DNA of 64,000 nt from Linnemannia elongata (taxonomy: Eukaryota > Mortierellomycota > Mortierellomycetes > Mortierellales > Mortierellaceae), in contig JAXBDG010000017.1 of assembly GCA_036320915.1 (NCBI GenBank), positions 310,001 to 374,000 of the forward strand. The letters are read 5' to 3'. The notes under the pieces are model-generated. The model did not search any database, had not been told where the DNA came from, and saw only the letters and a list, made by a program, of their open reading frames with translations. Positions 37,871-49,713 of this stretch are shown here, in pieces. Numbering within the stretch: the stretch's first letter is position 1; each line of letters starts with the position of its first letter. The translations under genes were made by a program, and so were the position numbers.

Positions 37871-39529
37871 TCACCGAAACAGATCGCCCGTAATAGTCAC
37901 AGTCCGGTTGGTTTTGAGAGTCTCAGACAGCGCCCGAATTCCGTCGGGTCCGATCGCGTTATCGTCCAAGCTCAACACGGTCAAAGTCGAGTTGGTCCTG
38001 AGTGCCTCGGACAATGCCTGAGCTCCGTTGGGTCCGATGAAGTTGCTCGCCAAGTCCAAAGTGGTCAGAGTCGAGTTGGTCTTGAGCACTTCGGACAGCA
38101 CCTGAGCTCCTTTGTTTCCGAACCAGCTTCTTCGTAAGTTCAAAGTGGCCAGAGTCGAGTTGGTCTTGAGTGCTTCGGTCAGGGCCTGACCTCCCTCGGG
38201 TCCGATCTTCCATGTAAACTCCAAAGTGGTAAGGGTCGAATTGTTCTTGAGTGCCTCAAACAGCAACTGAGCCCCATTGGATCCGATGGAGTTACCCCCC
38301 AAGTACAAAGTGGTCAGAGTCGAGTTGGCCTTGAGTGCCTCAGACAGCGCCTGGGCTCCATCGGGTCCGATCAAATTGTTATGCAAGTTCAAAGTGGTCA
38401 GAGTCGAGTTGGTCTTGAGTGCTTCAGAAAATGCCTGAGCTCCGTTGTTTTCGATGGAGTTGCCCGACAAGTTCAAAGTAGTCAGAGTCAAGTTGGTCTT
38501 GAGTGCTTCAGACAGTGCCTGAGCTCCGTTGGGTCCGATGGAGTTGCCCGCCAAGTCTAAAGTGGTCAGAGTCGAGTTGGTTTTGAGGGCCTCAGACAGG
38601 GCCTGAGATCCATTGGGGCCGATCAAATTGTTGTACAAGCCCAAAGTGGTCAGAGTCGAGTTGTTCATGAGTGCCTCGGACAGTGCCTGAGCTCCATGGG
38701 GTCCGATCGAGTTGTACTCCAAGTTCAAAGTGGTCAGAGTCGAGTTGATCTTGAGTGCCTCACACAGCGCCTGGGCTCCGTCGGGTCCGATCGAGTTGTA
38801 ATTCAAGTTCAAAGTGGTCAGAGTCGAGTTGTCCTTGAGTGCCTCAGACAGTACCTGAGCTCCATGGGGTCCGATCGAGTTGTACTCCAAGTTCAAAGTG
38901 GTCAGAGTCGAGTTGATCTTGAGTGCCTCACACAGCGCCTGGGCTCCGTCGGGTGCGATGGAGTTGCCCGCCAAGTTCAAAATAGTCAGAGTCGAGTTGG
39001 TCTTGAGTGCTTCGGACAGTGCCTGAGCTCCGTTGGGTCCGATGGTGTTGCCCCCCAAGTCCAAAGTGGTCAGAGTCGAGTTGCCCTTGAGTGCCTCTGA
39101 CAGCGCCTGAGCTCCGTCGGGTCCGATCGAGCTCCTGGACAACCTTAACGTGGTCAGAGTTGAGTTGGTCCTGAGTGCCTCGGATAGCGCCTGAACTTCG
39201 TCGTATTGGATCGGGTAGCTGTCCAACTCCAAAGTGGCCAGAGTCGAGTTGGTCATGACGCTAGAAACTACTTTGTCTCGTGATGTCGATGGTAGTTTTC
39301 CATATGCAGAGTCCTGAATCGCCAGGTGTCGTATAAGATGCTTGTTTCTCTCAACAGATTCCATGCTGGGGCCATGTTTTGACAGTACGACAGAGTTGTA
39401 GAGTGGCGGTGTAAAGGAGTCACTCCAATCCTGGCATACACGCGCACATGACGCGAGGTCGCGGAGACGAAGACTGCTGGCAATCCTTGAACAAATCTCA
39501 GGTAAATCGAGGGGATGTGTCTGGAACAT
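37871..39529 (-). CDS. F-box-like LRR protein, copy 3 (inverted)
   Basis: Single exon, 552 residues from the ATG at 39529. The frame is open to an ATG at 39700, but that part is the pyrimidine-rich leader seen in paralogs. The F-box-like start (THPLDLPEICSRIASSLRLR, ARVCQDWSDSFTPPLYN) is followed by about 15 repeats of 28 residues, with some breaks of the pattern (EFTWKIGPEGGQ lacks residues). It is more diverged from copies 1 and 2 than they are from each other. It lies directly downstream of the Fanzor-type gene on the same strand, with the Fanzor stop only 178 bp from this ATG, so the Fanzor 3' end and this promoter must overlap. Confidence 0.83.
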   Translation of the reverse strand: MFQTHPLDLPEICSRIASSLRLRDLASCARVCQDWSDSFTPPLYNSVVLSKHGPSMESVERNKHLIRHLAIQDSAYGKLPSTSRDKVVSSVMTNSTLATLELDSYPIQYDEVQALSEALRTNSTLTTLRLSRSSIGPDGAQALSEALKGNSTLTTLDLGGNTIGPNGAQALSEALKTNSTLTILNLAGNSIAPDGAQALCEALKINSTLTTLNLEYNSIGPHGAQVLSEALKDNSTLTTLNLNYNSIGPDGAQALCEALKINSTLTTLNLEYNSIGPHGAQALSEALMNNSTLTTLGLYNNLIGPNGSQALSEALKTNSTLTTLDLAGNSIGPNGAQALSEALKTNLTLTTLNLSGNSIENNGAQAFSEALKTNSTLTTLNLHNNLIGPDGAQALSEALKANSTLTTLYLGGNSIGSNGAQLLFEALKNNSTLTTLEFTWKIGPEGGQALTEALKTNSTLATLNLRRSWFGNKGAQVLSEVLKTNSTLTTLDLASNFIGPNGAQALSEALRTNSTLTVLSLDDNAIGPDGIRALSETLKTNRTVTITGDLFR

Positions 39530-39706
39530 AGGAAGAGCGTAACAAGTGTCGACCGGGATGATGACGAGGACAGTTGTGATAAGCCAGCAGAAAGGTGCGA
39601 TAACGAGGTAGGAATGTGGAAAAGAAAGAGGTAAGAAGAAAGAATGTAATGAAAAGGATGGCAGTAATGTTCGACAGAGTCCCCTTTCGACTTGTGTCAT
39701 CCAGAA

Positions 39707-42700
39707 TCACAACTGCTCAGTTTCAACTAAACTGTCCCTTGGCGCATCACATGACGGGTGGCTTTGGGTGGAGGTTTTGATGTCCAGGTTAGGTACTCTG
39801 GCGGTCATAGTTGTCGTCGGGAGGGCGTAGGGACGGTACGGAGGAAGAGCCTTGTGGTCTGCTGAAAGGAGAATAGAAGTTCCAGAGATGAGAATATTGT
39901 TCGCAGCGTTCGCGTCACGCCCCATGGAACCTCGGCCGGCTTTTCTCCGAGGACACGTCGGGTTCTTGCACTCCACCGAACCGTTCAAACGCATGGTCTT
40001 GGTCTCACCATCCTTTGTCCTTGTTGCGCGAGAAAGCGAGATCGGAGCAAAGCAACAACTACATATCTTGGACGTCCTGTTTTCGTTGGTATGTCCGACA
40101 GGACATACCTGACGGTGTTGCTGAGTCATCTTGGATCCGCCCCTCTTGACATGGCCCTTTATCCGCGAACCAACAGCGGTTCCTGCCGCTCCATGTAATA
40201 CCACTGGGATGATATTTTTTTTTCGAGAGACCAAGCCTATACATCAACGCAGTAAAGGGGCGAACAGCATATGGTCAATAAAATGAACGTTATGCAAAAT
40301 CACTTTTTCATTACAACTAAACCCTTGAAACAAATAACGCGCTTACCTTTTTGCCCTGTGTCTGTTGTAAACTCTAACCCCTCAAAAGCCATGCGCTTGG
40401 ACTTGGTCGACATCGCCTCAAGGGAAAGATCAGCTGGGCTACCTGCTGATAGCTGAGTCTCCTGGACCATAACATCCTCCTCAAGCTCTGCACCCTTGAT
40501 TTTGCCGGTAGAACCAGTAACATCCTCGATAACATCTGAGGTAGCATCAAGTACGACGGTCTCAACCGTGTTGGTGATGGTAGTCCCAGGCTTCTCAGAT
40601 TCTTGTCGCTGTCGGCCCAGTGCGGCAACAGTTGCGGACTCTGCAAGTACCATGTCCTTGGCCTGCTGTCGTTGTCTTGCAGCAAGTGTGGTGTAGACCC
40701 TCCTCGTTGTTAGCTCCTGTGTACGGAGGTCGTGAATCCTCCATGGGGCATTCTCGAACTCCCTACACGGCTGACGCGACTGTCGACGGATCTCCTGTGA
40801 GGCTTCCACCTCATCCAAAGTCTCGGCAAAGTTAATCGATGAATTCGAAAGCGCCTTCAGGGCATCACGGGTCGATCTGGCCTCTGGGGTATGGGCTGCC
40901 AGTTTCTTTTGTCTTTTCTGTTGATTCTTGGTAGTGAGCGACAGGCTGTCGATCTGCTCTGCGGTAACAGTACGGACTGGAGGAATAGCTACGGTCGCCT
41001 GCTCCTGCTCCTCGCTCGATATTGGTGGCTCCAACTCATCCATCTCTAGTAAATGAGAACATGAAAAGAGATACTGTAAGTACCTCGCACTCTATCATTG
41101 GCCTTGTTAAAAATCAAACATGTAAAAACAAATTGCGAGAAAAAAACACTTACGTGCTAGTAGGTTGAATCTATTCTGGGTTTGTACGGTATACTGCCGT
41201 ATTGACTGAGTAACGCTGGTGAGCGTCGAGGTTACCGATGTGGTCATTTTGACGAGTCCAGGATCGTCCGCAGTAAATCCAATGCCCTTTGTCCTGTCCG
41301 ACTTTGCCGCATCCAAAGCGCAATTGATGTAGAGGCACTCTGTCGTGGCTTCTCCTGCTGGATGTGACCACGTGGGCCGAGCTTCATACTTAGGGCGGGT
41401 CGTAGATGGTGGATCGGTGCTCGGTTTGGTCTTTGCGATTCTCTGTAAGGCGTATCTGGTAGCCCTATCGAGTCGAAGGTCCTCGTCTTTTCTCATCCAA
41501 TCCATGAACGCAGCGTCTGCATTTTTTCTGGCCGCCTGAAGATCTGCCTCAGCCTGCTTCTCATTGGGCTTTTCTCGCTTCGGATTGATGCTCTGTGCTT
41601 CCTGTTCATTGAACTTGATGATTTCACGGACACGAACAGCCGCATTGTGTCTCGTGTTGTCAGCCACCAACCAAAGACGCCGCCTCTCTTTCTGCTCTCC
41701 CTCCAGGTTCTTGGAGATCTCGCTCATGTCAACTAATCGTTGTGTAGCCATTGCCTGAGTGATTCCGGTTCGATGCCCTTCTCGACCCCAATCAGTGCCA
41801 GCCCGCCTCTTTGTCATATCCTTCTTTTGTTCATCCAACATACTGATGACCGGTCCTCCTTGGCCTCTCTCCTGTCCTTCCGGGATAGCATCACCCAGCA
41901 CACGGACTGTATGGCGGTTGACAAAAGTTAGCCTGAAGAAAGTGAAAGGAGATGAGACTTGTTGTCAGAAACTTTTTTTTTTCTTGTGCATTGAAAACGT
42001 TAATGACAACCAAATATATGTTGCGTGGAATAGCAAGACAAATACTTACCGAAATGCAAAGCGCAACTTGTATTTACGGCATAGACCGTGGATCGCCTCG
42101 ATGTCGAAAAAGTTGTCGAATACATCCGTTTGGTTCTTGGTTGCTGTGATTACTGATGCGATGGGCTTGTGGCTCTTGTCATAGATATCAAAGTTGTTGG
42201 GAGCTTTCCAGCACAATGTCTCGTACAGCGCAGCCGCGCCAAGCGGAATGGGGTGCAACGATGCCACCGACGGCGCAGGGGCGAACCTTCTTGCGAATTG
42301 TCCGTATCCGGAGTACTGCAGAAAATGATTGGATATCAATACAATCCGTATCATGGTCGCTGCATTTGCGGTGGGAGGTGCAGTGCTGCCAGACGCGTTC
42401 GAAACTCGTTTGGGGGTATAGGGAGCCAACGACTTGACAATGTTCACCACTGCTGCACAGTCAGCGTCTGTGAACTCCTCTGGTCGGTGCGCCGTCCTTC
42501 GGACCCAAGCTGAGTTTAGACTGGGGACATCAAGGTTTGGAGACTCCAAAAGAATCTTAGTCACAGCCTGAACAGTTTTCAGGTGGGCTCGCGAGGGCTC
42601 TTTAGGTCGTGCTAAAGCCAAAGACAATTTTTAAGTATAACCAAACAGGTCAAGGTTAGTAAGTTCCTGTAATGTTGACACCATTAAGAACGTCTGTTCA

Positions 42701-45700
42701 TTTGTCCAAAATGCCGTAACATTAGTCCTCAGTTGGTTACCTGAAGTGCTTGTTTCTGCCTTCTGCTCCTCGTCCTCCGATTCCTCATCCACTTCATCCA
42801 AAGCTTCCTCGGTAGCCTCCAACATCAAGCGAGTCTCCTCCACTGTATCGGCATGGCCAAAGATCGATCCATTATCCACTTGTCGGTCCTTCTTCGGCTC
42901 CTTGGCGACATGGTCTCTCAGTAATGACATCAAGGCCTGAAATCGATCTGTTCCTGTTCTATCCTGAGCAGCAAGTTCTCCCAAGTTCTGTTGCAACTGC
43001 TCAGCCCGATCTTTCCATGCTTTGAATGTCATGGATCGCGAATTGTCCCTCTCTCTCTGCTCCATTTTCTTCTTGGCTAGGTCCCGTACTCTCGTGTAAT
43101 ACTTGAGCTCGCGCTCCGGAGCCAGCTGGAACCGTAGAGAAAACCTGAGGAGAAAGTCCAGCGCCTTGGAGAAAAGAGGGCCGCTCCAGAGGTTGGCGAT
43201 GTTGGTTGCAAACTCTACACGGTAGTCAGTAAATACTGTAGCGAGGCCGCTCATGGGGTGTGGTTGGCCGGGTTTCCATGAAGAATCGAGTGCGCTGAGC
43301 GGTGGACCCTCCAGTGACTTTGCCAACTCAGCCCAGAGTGGATGCTTTTTGTCGGAATCCGGGTCGAGCCCATGCGGGCTGAAAAACGAGGAGTATAAAA
43401 AGCCAAGATGATGATAGGAAAAGAGCTCCTGCAGATCTGAAATCCACCTTTGGTTGGGTCCCTTGGTGGAGGCGTCGATGTATTGTGAGAGGTGTGAGGG
43501 TAGTGGCGCAACAGCAACCGTTGGGGAACTGTTTGTCCTGAGTGTAAAAGTTGATGGAATAAGCGACGTGCATATGTTGAATGTCGGTTGTTGGAATTGC
43601 TTCCTAGTTCCTTGTGCTGGCGTTGTTGGGACTCTTGGATCTGGCACGGTGAAGGCATTCTGGGCCAACTATAGCAGTTAAAGAAAATCAATTGAAGAAT
43701 AAACAAGCGTTAGAGATTGATCGTGACCTACTTATATCAAAGTAATGTACAAGAAGAGCCATGAAACCATTTGACTTACCAGTAGCGTGGTTTTCCTTAC
43801 TAAGCACGCTAGCTCATCAACAGCATTCGTCAGGATTTCTTGCTTGCTTCTCAAAACATCGTACATCTTCTGAGCGGCCGTCATCTCCTTCCCGGGGTTG
43901 TCGTTGCTTTCCTGAACAACCACGGTCGTATGGTGCAACTCTTTCCTGATGATATCCTTCAGCGGAACGGTGACCGTCAGCAAACGTTTCTTCTCTCGCT
44001 CCCGAGCTTCTCGCTCAATCATCTCCGAAATCGCGGCCTCATCTTCGTCAGGCAGTAGGTCCCCCGAATTGTCAACCGCCAAACCAGCTGGATCGACTAA
44101 AGCCTCATTGAAATTTTCGATGTTGATGTCTGAGGTTTGGTGACTGGTAGAGGGATTTCTCTCGGGGTTTGGGCGACTGATAGCGGTATTCCATGCGTCG
44201 TTGAAATTGGTCCGAAGGCTGTTGTGGTACTGTTCCTGACGGTAGAGGGTGTCAAGCTGAGTCGTCAAGTTGTGCTTGCGAAAAGTGTCGGTGTTTGGAT
44301 AGGTAGACTTTACGATGTCGGTGGCTCGATCCACCAAACCCTGGGGGAGGGATGGCTTTCCACTGAGTGACTCCAGGGTTGCTGACTTCTTCTGCTCGCA
44401 ATAAACGTCCTCGAAAGTTTCCGTACGTTTCCGTTTCCGCCACAACCTGTCTACCTCCTTTTCAACCTCTTGCTTGGCTTTCTCATCGCTAGATCATTAA
44501 TAAAAAGGAGGATATAAATTGGTAAATATCTACATCAATGTGCCTAACGTGACATCTGCAAGCAAGAAGCATATTTAACACGAACTTACCATGCTCGCGC
44601 AAACGAGATCTTTAGCTTCTCCTCTGTCAGATGGGCCCTCGAATCGCGCGGGGCGTACTGTATGCGCCTTTTCGTTGCCCGAAACGTAGCCAGTGGAGGT
44701 CCTTGTATTGCAGACCCAGAAGCCGTAATGGACAAGGGAGGAGACCGCGCGTCTGAAGAGGAGCTTGAGGTGATAGTGGCCGTTGCGGCTGTTGAGGACC
44801 AAGGTGTATGTCTGGCTTTCTGCGACGAGGGGAGCGGTGGCCATTCGGATGATGATAGTGAGAGCACGTGTGTTGATAGCTCTATAGTTGAAGAAATTGA
44901 GTCTGTCCCCGACAGTGTTGGTGGCGAACGAAGGTGTGACTGGGCAGTCGACCATAGGGCAGAGGACCAAGAAGAGGATTGTGAAGATGGTGGGAACCCC
45001 GATGGACGCTGAGGAGAGGACTCTGACAAGACTTGATTGGACGAGGTCGTTGGAGTCATTATGACCTTTAGGACGGAATAAATCGAACCGCCATCAAGGG
45101 CCTGCTTCTTGTGGATCAAGGGTATGGTTCCACGACTCAGGTCGCAACTGTACTGGCGTGGCTGCTCTGTCGACGAAAAAATGATGATCGTGCACTTTAG
45201 ATGCCTCGCCAGAATCTCAAATGACATGGCGGTGCGTGGCCAGACAGTCGTAGTACGTTCTCCAGGCCCCACATGAAGGGATACGGGAAGCGTCTCAAGT
45301 CGTGTGGAGGGGTTGAGGAGATCATTCTTGAGGATGTGGGCGAGCGTTGAGAACGGACATGGGGTGGGAGTAACTTCCTCTTCCAAGTGTGAACGAACTA
45401 GAGCCTTCATGATGGAATCCACGCGTCCATTGAAGGACTTCTTGAAGAATGGGTCCTCGGCAACGCTCAAAACCTTCTCGCCGATGGCTGGGTCCTGCAG
45501 TCCAGTTCCTAGAGCCGTATTCATTGGATCCCATGCTGCGTCAACTGAATATCGAAAAGGTCCTGAGACGAACCAGCTCTATTTTCCAACAAGAATTTTA
45601 TTTAAAAAAAAAGAGAGACGGCTGGTCAATGCTCGTTGTTTCAGAGACAACGTTGGCAATAGCAAGAGCAGTACAGCAAAGGCAAAGAGCAAACAATAAG

Positions 45701-45743
45701 CAAGACATACGGTGTGGACGCCTGTCTGAGCATCGATTTCCAT
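39707..45743 (-). CDS. Large Fanzor (eukaryotic TnpB-like RNA-guided nuclease) protein
   Basis: Eight exons (45743-45711, 45578-44590, 44488-43780, 43668-42741, 42611-42050, 41932-41154, 41045-40347, 40236-39707) close in phase at all seven junctions and give 1742 residues. RuvC-I is Asp1297 in TADDPGLVKM. RuvC-II is Glu1618 in TNENRTSKICSCC, where the first zinc-ribbon CxxC begins (Cys1625, Cys1628). The second Cys pair is VECKNPTC. RuvC-III is Asp1674 in GRDANAANNI. The block VVLHGAAGTAVGSRIKGH before RuvC-II is typical of Fanzors. Fanzors are programmable DNA nucleases that use a guide RNA made from their own locus. Residues 12-183 form a separate domain (SLHVGPGERTT, AMSFEILARHLKCTIIIFSS), followed by a Ser/Thr/Pro-rich linker and long charged helices. 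Known Fanzors are mostly much shorter. No terminal repeats of a carrier element were found. Confidence 0.85.
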
Positions 45744-47009
45744 TTCAGTGCAAGTGTGCTCCTCCTAAAATGAGGTAGAGAGTTGAAGTAGAATGAACGA
45801 GGCGTGAATACGAGTCTGATAATGGCGGTTGACGATGTAAAACAACAAGAGGCGAGGCAAGCTCGTAGATCTGGATCTGTACCTGAAGTGTGGGCTTTAA
45901 TTGCAGGGAAAACTGGAGGAGGAAAGAGCGCGAGTGGAATGTTCGATAGGGAGCGAGTTATGGAAGAAGGGAAGAAAGAAAGGAAAACAAAGAAAAATTT
46001 TGGGGTGATGGTGGATATTGCCAAGAGGAGCACATTGATGGATGGATTGTTAAGCAAGAGGAGAGCGACTCGGCGATTTTGCGCTGATGAAAGGTTAACT
46101 GACAGGTCCACGTCTGATCAAATACATACAGTACTGTACTTGATGCCGAGCGTTGAACGTTTTATAAGCCTAAAATCCCCATCTATCTCTGTTTCTACGA
46201 AGACTCTTCTTTCGCCCTTATTTGTACATCAAAGAACTGTGGTGAGGTTTGAGCATCAGACTTTATTTGACTTTTGAGTATCGCGGTGGAACCTGGCAAC
46301 AAAATCTGGCGCGCTAGAAATATATGTATCTAGTAGTCTATATTACAACTGCACCAATGTATCCTGTTGTTCTTGCTATTTCTCCCGAGTTTGCTTGCTG
46401 CTCACTGCTTCGTTGAATGCTGCTTGTGCCTGACGTCGTATTACTCGCTTCTTTTAGTCAGTTCCTTTGCCTTTGTCCTTGGTAGGAGAAGACGGGGAGA
46501 CCATTGATGTGTATGCGTATGTGCGAGGAGGAAGTGAAGAGGAGGAGTAACGAGAAGTGAGAGGGAAAAGTCTTGTCGACAGGAGAATTGGTGAATGATG
46601 GGGGGAACGATTAAGGAGTGTGACCGTGGTGTACAGTCAGTGGTGTCGAGGTGAAGAGGTAAAGGTATGACTAGGTTTGATGAGAGGAGAAGGCTGAAGG
46701 GTTAGAAGAAAGAAAGAAAGAGGTGAATGGAATGGTATGGTGAATGGTCAAGGGATGCAAGATGCAAGTGAGAAAAAAAAGTGCCAAATTGCGTAGAAAA
46801 TAAGTGCTCGATTGTGTTTACTTTATTAGGTCCTGTCAGGTCCACTCTGCCTGTGGTTGGGCACGACTCATTCCCTAATAAGGGTTGATGTTGATACGAT
46901 TGGCCCTCAAAACCGTGACTGTTTTTTCATTTTCAGCGCTTGATTTTCCACGCCAGAAATTTTTACAAAGGCCACTACCCCTGTATTGGTATCGTGATGC
47001 ACGAGTATG

Positions 47010-47512: not shown

Positions 47513-48928
47513 TCACTTAAATCGGCTGCCCGCAATAGTCACAGTCCGGTTGGTTTTGAGAGTCTCAGTCAGCGCCCGAATTCCGTCGGGTCCGATCGCG
47601 TTGTCGTCCAAGTTCAACACGGTCAAAGTCGAGTTGCTCTTGAGTGCCTCAGACAATGCCTGAGCTCCGTTGTTTCCGATGGAGTTGGCCGCCAAGTTCA
47701 AAGTGGTCACAGTCGAGTTGACCTTGAGTGCTTGGGACAGTGCCTGAGCTCCGTTGTTTCCGATGGAGTTGCCCGCCAAGTCCAAAGTGGTCAGGGTCGA
47801 GTTGTTCTTGAGTGCCTCAGATAATGATTGAGCTCCGTCGGATCCGATCACGTTGTAGCGCAAGTGCAGAGTCGTCAGAGTCGAGTTGGCTTTGAGTGCC
47901 TCGGATAGCGCCTGAGCTCCGTTGCGCCCGATGGGGTTGCCCGTCAAGTCCAAAGTGGTCAGGGTCGAGTTGTTTTCGAGTGCTTCAGACAGCGCCTGAG
48001 TTCCATCGGGTCCGATCGAGTTGTCGTCCAAGTTCAAAGTGGTCAGAGTCGAGTTGTTCTTGAGTACCTTGGACAGCGCCTGAGCTCCGCCATCTGCAAT
48101 CGAGTTGTAGCGCAATTCCAAGGTGGTCAGAGTTGAGTTGATCTTGAGTGCCTCGAATAGCGCCTGAGCTCCGTCGGGTCTGATCGAGTTGTCGTCGAAG
48201 TTCAAAGCGGTCAGAGTTGAGTTGCCTCTGAGTGCCTCACACAGCGCCTGAGCTCCATTGCGTTCGATCGAGTTGCCCCCCAAGTACAAAGTGGTCAGAG
48301 TCGAATTGTCCTTGAGTGCCTCAGACAATGATTGAGCTCCGTTATCTCCGATCGAGTTGTATCCTAAGTCCAAACTGGTCAGAGTTGAGTTGGACTTGAG
48401 TCCCTTAAACATTGCCTGAGTTCCGTTGGGGCCAATTTTGTTGTCGCCCAAGTTCAACGTGGTCAGAGTCGAGTTGCACTTGAGTGCCTCGAATAGCGCC
48501 TGAGCTCCTTCGGGTCCGATTTCGTTGTCGTCCAAGTTCAAAGTGGTCAAAGTCGAGTTGTTCTTGAGTGCCTCACACAGCGCCTGAGCTCCGTCGTGTC
48601 CGATCGAGTTGCTAGCCAAGTGCAATTCGGTCAGAGACGAGTTGGCCATGATGCTAGAAACTACTTGGTGTCTTGATGATGTCAATCGTAATTTTTCATA
48701 GACACAAATCTGAATCACCAGGTGTCGTATAAGGTGCTTGTTTCTCTCAATAGATTCCATGCTGGGGCCATGTTTTGACAATATGATAGTGTTGTAGAGT
48801 AGCGGTGTAAAGGAGTCGTTCCAATCCTGACATACACGCGAACAGGACGCGAGGTCTTTGCGACCAAGACTGTTGGCTATTCTTGAGCGAATCTCAGGTA
48901 AATCGAGGGGATGTGTCCGGGACATCAT
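47513..48928 (-). CDS. F-box-like LRR protein, copy 4 (inverted)
   Basis: Single exon, 471 residues from the ATG at 48928. The in-frame extension to 49108 aligns with the non-coding leader of copies 1 and 2. The first 80 residues (RTHPLDLPEIRSRIANSLGR, SRVCQDWNDSFTPLLYN, GPSMESIERNKHLIRHL) are almost the same as in copies 1 and 2. About 13 repeats of 28 residues follow, ending in TVTIAG. Exposed positions of the repeats vary (NEIGPEG, NSIERNG, NPIGRNG, NVIGSDG). The gene lies on the same strand as copy 3 and on the other side of the Fanzor gene. Confidence 0.85.
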   Translation of the reverse strand: MMSRTHPLDLPEIRSRIANSLGRKDLASCSRVCQDWNDSFTPLLYNTIILSKHGPSMESIERNKHLIRHLVIQICVYEKLRLTSSRHQVVSSIMANSSLTELHLASNSIGHDGAQALCEALKNNSTLTTLNLDDNEIGPEGAQALFEALKCNSTLTTLNLGDNKIGPNGTQAMFKGLKSNSTLTSLDLGYNSIGDNGAQSLSEALKDNSTLTTLYLGGNSIERNGAQALCEALRGNSTLTALNFDDNSIRPDGAQALFEALKINSTLTTLELRYNSIADGGAQALSKVLKNNSTLTTLNLDDNSIGPDGTQALSEALENNSTLTTLDLTGNPIGRNGAQALSEALKANSTLTTLHLRYNVIGSDGAQSLSEALKNNSTLTTLDLAGNSIGNNGAQALSQALKVNSTVTTLNLAANSIGNNGAQALSEALKSNSTLTVLNLDDNAIGPDGIRALTETLKTNRTVTIAGSRFK

Positions 48929-49713
48929 ATTCACAAGAAAGGGGGTGACGAGTGTTGACGGGGATGATGACGAGGTCAGTAGTGAGGAGGCGACAGAAAG
49001 AGGTGATAATGAGGGTAGGAATGAGGAAAAGGAAGATGGAAGGAAAAAGGAATGAAATGAAATGAAACGGATGTTCAGAATGGTTACAAAAAAAGGTTTC
49101 AATTTCATTCTTCCCTACTATGAGAAGAGTAGAAGAGAGAAAGAGAAAGGGAGAAGGGGTAAGATTAAGAGGGCACTTGATTCTGTGTTGATGGCCCCCG
49201 GAATTAGAGTGGGCTGTGGTGGTGAGAAGAACAGGTTTAGTGAATAGGAGGGAGACAGAATTAGTACCTGGTACTCGGTAGAGTTACTGCGTCCAGCAAG
49301 CAATTGACTATATTTTCAGGGTACGTCTGTCGCGTTAGTGCAGGTATAGGAATAATGGCGCATTGGGGTCTGAAGACTGGTTTATGTGTATTTGTTTCTC
49401 TTCGTTTTTCACTTATGATGTACTCAGAGTCTCAAATACTCAAGCATCAGAAAGAACTAGCAGAGAGCCGGTCTGTCACCGATGTATGTTTTATACAACC
49501 TTGAAGAAAAATCAAAATTGCGATCTTTGGCCGCAAAAAAAAAAAGGATCTTCTCAAGAAGCTCCCAGATGCCACAGTTGGTCTCCAGGGACCAAAGTCA
49601 ACAATTGCCTAGAATCAACATAGTTCTTTCACATAGTCAAAATATTTTTTGTCGTCATGGTACATTATACGATTAAGAACCTAACGTGAAAGGAAAAAAA
49701 AATCACCAGGCAA
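48929..49713. other. Upstream region of LRR copy 4
   Basis: The promoter and pyrimidine-rich leader (seen as purines on this strand) of the LRR gene, shared with paralogs up to about 49110. The remaining 600 bp show no gene or repeat that I recognise. Confidence 0.5.

Follow-up and report, generated by a model that had tools for sequence, protein, structure and literature searches.

The minus strand of contig C9 of Linnemannia elongata carries a locus which a sequence-only reading had described as a single gene encoding a Fanzor nuclease of 1742 residues with a large N-terminal extension. Is so long a frame one gene, does its product belong among the Fanzors, and what kind of DNA carries it? 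The window, i.e. the whole stretch of 64,000 nucleotides analysed, corresponds to C9:310001-374000 in a 51-Mb genome of 32 contigs.

Results

Gene model

In the window copy, eight exons and seven introns gave a single frame of 1742 residues followed by one stop codon (Table 1). All seven introns are of the GT...AG type, have a length of 101-132 nt, and would introduce an in-frame stop if retained; less typical donors are present in intron 1 (GTATGT), intron 4 (GTAACC) and intron 7 (GTAAGC). The exon breaks were found at corresponding places in diverged subfamilies of the same genome, and giant relatives of 1730, 1797, 1678 and 1605 aa have been annotated by others. Because of these matching breaks and annotated relatives, the eight-exon model is no chance chain. 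The earlier claim that seven introns join in phase was thus upheld, and the gene was confirmed, at the level of its sequence, as real and as one frame. Its length is indeed unusual: according to PMC11423790, the majority of described Fanzor1s have 600-700 aa.

That the frame is an artefact, i.e. separate genes or a decayed copy reading through by chance, seems very improbable to us. The junctions are based on frame and homology, and one copy (L041) contains a stop and apparent frame breaks. Against this explanation stand, however, the seven in-phase junctions, the same exon layout in other subfamilies, the annotated relatives, and the fact that exons 2-8 of the window copy are all open and 99.8% identical (over 1726 codons) to those of copy L036 on C28.

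Table 1. Coordinates of the gene, of the element that carries it and of related loci (positions in the window unless a contig is named)
Feature	Position	Strand	Basis
Exon 1	45711..45743	-	joined-frame model; ATG aligns with that of other subfamilies
Exon 2 (N-terminal part)	44590..45578	-	joined-frame model and genome search
Exon 3	43780..44488	-	joined-frame model and genome search
Exon 4	42741..43668	-	joined-frame model and genome search
Exon 5	42050..42611	-	joined-frame model and genome search
Exon 6 with RuvC-I Asp1297 (codon 41263-41265)	41154..41932	-	frame model and subfamily alignment
Exon 7 (long RuvC-I to RuvC-II stretch)	40347..41045	-	joined-frame model and genome search
Exon 8 with RuvC-II Glu1618 (40082-40084), zinc ribbon and RuvC-III Asp1674 (39914-39916)	39707..40236	-	frame model, alignment, PDB profile
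Stop codon, exon 8	39707-39709	-	
Mobile element, 7254 bp (left end GGCGTGGAAAATCAAG, right end GAGCAGTTGTGATTCTGG)	39701..46954	-	homology with C28 copies stops sharply, flanks differ
Left terminus	46939..46954	-	exact pattern 8 times in genome; reversed control 0
Target T-tract TTTCT beside left end (proposed TAM)	46955..46959	-	TTT(C/T)T at 8/8 exact left ends
Shared non-coding 5' module	45756..46858	-	93-97% identity between subfamilies; substitutions even over codon positions
Right-end segment kept as nucleic acid (proposed to be the omega-RNA scaffold, the transposon end or both)	39701..39780	-	cross-frame subfamily alignment
Terminal hairpin CAGTTT-AGTTG-AAACTG	39718..39734	-	pair counts, moderate support
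Right flank, predicted guide sequence	39681..39700	-	analogy with TnpB/Fanzor
Loci matching both ends, 1-7	window copy (C9), C28 twice, C7:477-483k, C5:717-723k, C7:491-497k, C10:1275-1281k		
Loci matching both ends, 8-13	C11:1094-1100k, C12:1701-1707k, C8:562-568k, C1:1561-1567k, C7:982-988k, C5:1430-1436k		

The giant family and its divergence

A search of the genome with residues 1-960 and 961-1742 gave at least 13 loci with a match to the N-terminal exon as well as to the zinc-ribbon exon (Table 1), and more distant loci at least at C12:2837k, C4:1187k, C29:1202k, C7:1258k and C9:32k, plus fragments; these counts are lower bounds, as the best candidates were scored. Since twelve further loci also match both ends, the N-terminal part belongs stably to the giant family. 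In the databases, we found at least 10 related proteins, 12 in a second search (four common to both), and 5 for the N-terminal 600 residues. Among the matches listed, all relatives bearing a name came from Linnemannia, Mortierella or Haplosporangium; each search scored about 8000 candidates within a length range and does not prove absence elsewhere. Within one such set, the N-terminal part of about 600 residues had no match beyond these relatives. One database protein (P0019, 794 aa) matches the N-terminal part and has none of the three nuclease motifs. No paper pairing Fanzor with Mortierella or Linnemannia was found in the open-licence literature.

Proteins of different subfamilies are 50-55% identical; dS was saturated and not computable between the window copy and either L038 or L040, and reached 2.5 between L038 and L040. 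Within subfamilies, the L038/L039 pair gave dN 0.014 and dS 0.038 (dN/dS about 0.37), and the L040/L041 pair dN 0.017 and dS 0.048 (dN/dS about 0.36).

Nuclease motifs

Across four aligned subfamilies, the RuvC-I Asp, the Glu of NE(N/H)xTS, the four Cys of the C4 zinc ribbon and the RD that follows it were invariant, with a constant spacing of 56 from the RuvC-II Glu to the last Asp. The motifs of the window copy were located exactly where they had first been placed: D1297 (DPG), E1618 (NENRTSK), Cys 1625/1628 and 1656/1661, and D1674 (GRDANAANN). DPG is present in three of the four subfamilies, while L044 has DRG instead; the RuvC-II Glu occupies the relocated position in all four (in the window copy, E1618, six residues, then C1625). 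The window copy thereby carries the Fanzor fingerprint, DPG and relocated Glu, given in PMC10711439.

The Fanzor reading itself stood in part. The long protein, the intact RuvC triad with its zinc ribbon and the Fanzor arrangement were all recovered; a single site formed by the three acidic residues and the production of a guide RNA are predictions. PF07282 remained below its cut-off, and only the zinc-ribbon profile found a Fanzor in the PDB. This profile returned SpuFz1 first (E 7.6e-4) and PpFz1 second (E 0.22) among five rows, and hhalign aligned it with three zinc ribbons of the ordinary Fanzor type, also from this genome, with a probability of 76.6 and E 2.1e-5 (a single comparison). With profiles built from the whole protein, from its C-terminal half and from two inner regions, the PDB gave no Fanzor match; the assignment is therefore founded on the DPG Asp and the last ~130 residues. 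PF07282 (OrfB_Zn_ribbon / Cas12f1-like TNB) was below cut-off for the seven full relatives (best E 0.011, 16.4 bits vs 26.3), and at E 1 it gave a signal in three of these seven and in all six zinc-ribbon pieces (best 0.014). None of its 54 hits in the genome is among the 13 giant loci. Several groups of these ordinary matches have identical scores (e.g. six at 46.0 bits), which suggests that ordinary TnpB/Fanzor-type genes may have spread recently too. The seven long exon frames retrieved only weak, unrelated names from Pfam at E up to 1.

The D-to-[TS] spacing of the window copy is 323, outside the 125-275 residues from the RuvC-I Asp to [TS][TS] described for the Fanzor/TnpB motif in PMC3627910; in approximate models of L042 and L043, the Asp-to-Glu spacing is 213 and 186, within that range. 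We treated spacing as descriptive, and the protein is therefore classed as a giant variant of the Fanzor lineage and not as a standard Fanzor.

Among 19 database proteins that were fetched, all three motifs were present in exact form in P0002, P0003 and P0010; their absence from many annotations probably reflects incomplete models or decay. An AlphaFold model of P0003 (1148 aa, 16 sequences) was of low confidence (mean pLDDT 40.7, pTM 0.24). Two domain assignments were rejected. Exons 4-5, considered as WED/REC, found no Fanzor in the PDB with profiles of the inner regions. An N-terminal OTU-like domain, likewise considered, had no Pfam match and nothing relevant in the PDB, and its predicted model was of low confidence.

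The mobile element and its ends

The view of a lone gene proved incomplete, as comparison of the copies indicates that the gene is nearly the whole content of a mobile element. The common sequence of the window copy and two copies on C28, which are 99.86-99.97% identical, extends rightwards as far as ...GTGATTCTGG and ends 6 nt beyond the stop codon, where the flanks start to differ. On the left, the window copy and L037 start with GGCGTGGAAAATCAAGCG and both are 7254 bp long; in L036, about 6.9 kb (C28:2229044 and 2235920) separates the left-end match from the rest, which lies downstream, a gap that we read as a later insertion. Exact matches in the genome numbered 10 for the right-end pattern and 8 for the left-end pattern, and none for either reversed control. 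The exact right end was present in eight of the nine loci with the long 5' module (C11 is without it), and ten right flanks that were read included nine distinct sequences, those on C21 and C29 being alike. Copies so nearly identical, dispersed and differently flanked indicate that the element is recently active. Two other subfamilies have sharp ends as well, which lie beyond the last coding match by about 50 bp (C8 group) and about 290 bp (C12:2837k group) and have different terminal bases.

No terminal inverted repeats were detected: the two ends agree at 2 of 10 and at 4 of 20 bases, and the best local match was equalled in 258 of 300 shuffles. Helitrons are recognised by a TC left end, a CTRR right end and a Rep/helicase protein. 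This identity was rejected, since the left end GGCG does not fit and no helicase was matched in Pfam by the seven exon frames or the 7 full relatives, although the right end CTGG and the hairpin do fit.

The shared 5' module of about 1.1 kb ends about 12 bp before the ATG. Two other subfamilies have it in four copies, at 93-97% identity to that of the window copy, and between L038 and L040 the sharing extends over most of exon 1. A coding function was rejected, because substitutions show no preference among codon positions. The simplest reading would be that 5' modules have been exchanged or converted. At C4:676088-676627, the left end and about 440 bp of the 5' module follow a T-tract, and no giant gene is listed at this place; the copy may be truncated or non-autonomous. 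Near the left end, L038 (400-850), L040 (220-810) and L041 (712-800) have inserts at one spot; that of L038 forms a long palindrome, and ends resembling TAGGCTCGCTTTCATCC are seen repeatedly. These inserts may represent a small inverted-repeat element that prefers this site.

Target site

The TTT(C/T)T that precedes all eight exact left ends occurs in the window before 33 of 7336 GG sites (0.45%) and before 0.86% of all positions. Filled sites have GG at both junctions. Empty-site relatives belong to two families, with five stretches related to the window flanks (two identical) and four to the L040 flanks (three nearly identical); they run through the joined flanks with neither duplication nor gap at the junction. 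They read TTCTGA (window-flank site) and TTTTTTATG (L040-flank site), with GA or TG where filled sites have GG. Since the empty relatives keep the T-rich part, it belongs to the target, and GG is found only in filled sites. A target duplication beyond a possible GG was absent from both empty-site families. A TTCTGG duplication was considered and rejected: in the window copy it is due to the target, which has this sequence, and it is absent from L037, L040 and L041.

Long leucine-rich-repeat frames are present to either side of the element, likewise on the minus strand (window 37871-39706 and 47513-49114), and its right end precedes the likely ATG (39529) of the former by 172 bp. Related upstream sequences on C9, C12 and C7 are the source of the empty sites.

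The right end as nucleic acid

Between subfamilies, the last ~80 nt can be aligned, with the window copy reading GATGCG..AAGGGAC in a different frame from the C7 and C10 copies. Such cross-frame conservation would be expected of a guide-RNA scaffold or a transposon end. In four tails, 95.8% of the 24 cells of a six-pair hairpin are paired, and two pairs are changed on both sides; slid versions gave 31.6-54.2%. The support is moderate because 46-57 of 500 shuffles reach these values. The folding energy of the right end was ordinary (z -0.05, -0.06 and -1.18), and Rfam gave nothing above its cut-offs for the right end, with two sub-threshold matches.

Discussion

The giant protein resembles the Fanzor1 proteins SpuFz1 of Spizellomyces punctatus and PpFz1 of Parasitella parasitica in its DPG RuvC-I, the Glu six residues before a C4 zinc ribbon and the RD RuvC-III, and like Fanzor1 it is carried by mobile elements. 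It differs from Fanzor1 in its 1742 aa, the roughly 320 residues from the RuvC-I Asp to the RuvC-II Glu, the extra N-terminal part of ~600 residues and its PF07282 score. For SPu-1, TIRs of 33 bp and putative TA duplications are described (PMC3627910), whereas the giant element has neither. With Fanzor2 and IS607-type elements it shares the lack of a TIR and of a target duplication beyond a possible GG, and a right end directly beside the gene, and the GG at both junctions resembles the matching-dinucleotide recombination of IS607-type elements described in PMC10711439, where no Fanzor1 in IS607 elements is reported. In contrast to these elements, its protein is much longer, and no serine recombinase was recognised: TnpA had no Pfam match in the seven long exon frames or the 7 full relatives. 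Chimeric Fanzor1 elements of Dictyostelium and Polysphondylium (Sola2 type) and Mucor MCi-2 are similar to the giant elements in that members from one genome have one half of the element in common, the other half being different; in PMC3627910, a transposase coding sequence and flanking duplications of 4 bp or 11-12 bp are described for them. In the giant elements, by contrast, the shared part is the apparently non-coding 5' module.

We favour, with some confidence, the interpretation that the protein represents a giant branch of the Fanzor lineage, seen so far only in Mortierellales, and that it is the sole recognised gene of a mobile DNA element with a proposed role in RNA-guided cutting. 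The 3' end of the transcript would serve as the omega-RNA, with a scaffold of about the last 80 nt and the flanking DNA as the guide, and the T-tract would act as the TAM. The protein would cut an emptied or allelic site (TAM and flank), and repair from the filled copy would keep the element. Retention of an element by cutting of the emptied site has been proposed for TnpB. The N-terminal ~600 residues would be a co-inherited part, and strand exchange would be provided either by them or by a recombinase in trans. In favour of this interpretation as a whole we counted the invariant triad, Cys and RD with the constant Glu-Asp spacing, the zinc-ribbon comparisons, the dN/dS of the sister pairs, the near-identical copies with different flanks, the exact termini, the T-tract, the empty sites, the conservation of the right end and the hairpin. 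Against it we counted the sub-threshold PF07282 and Rfam matches, the profiles that found no Fanzor, the long D-to-[TS] spacing, the DRG of L044, the low-confidence models, the ordinary folding energy and the shuffles that reach the hairpin values.

Two other explanations concern the recombinase. In an IS607- or Crypton-like element with the recombinase encoded elsewhere, the giant protein would be a passenger or regulator whose RuvC binds nucleic acid without RNA-guided cutting, and the right end would be constrained only as a recombinase site. This would agree with the absence of TIRs, of a target duplication beyond GG and of a recognisable recombinase in the giant protein, and the terminal hairpin is also compatible with a transposase site; however, the three acidic residues and the Cys were kept across subfamilies with saturated synonymous divergence, and we consider such an element rather unlikely. 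Alternatively, the N-terminal part itself could be the recombinase, i.e. a transposase fused to a Fanzor in a one-protein autonomous element. The gene is the only long one found in the element, its N-terminal and C-terminal parts occur together at 13 loci, and the copies are recent, but neither Pfam nor the PDB gave a match to any recombinase, and the N-terminal AlphaFold model is of low confidence, which makes the fusion doubtful. Equally doubtful, though the most far-reaching, is a self-sufficient eukaryotic element in which one polypeptide would move the DNA through an N-terminal recombinase and guard the site by RNA-guided cutting, with the guide from the right-end flank and the T-tract as the TAM.

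As a candidate branch of the Fanzor lineage, the giant proteins enlarge its size about 2.5-fold, and their element ties a Fanzor-type protein to T-tract insertion without the usual duplication. Fanzor mining as described in PMC10711439 begins with PF07282, and such PF07282-first mining could easily miss the giant proteins. One culturable fungus offers at least 13 loci with copies that are nearly identical, with empty relatives and with predictions for the guides and the TAM, and the natural role of a Fanzor in transposition is therefore directly testable; as the protein fills almost all of the element, so are both cutting and movement.
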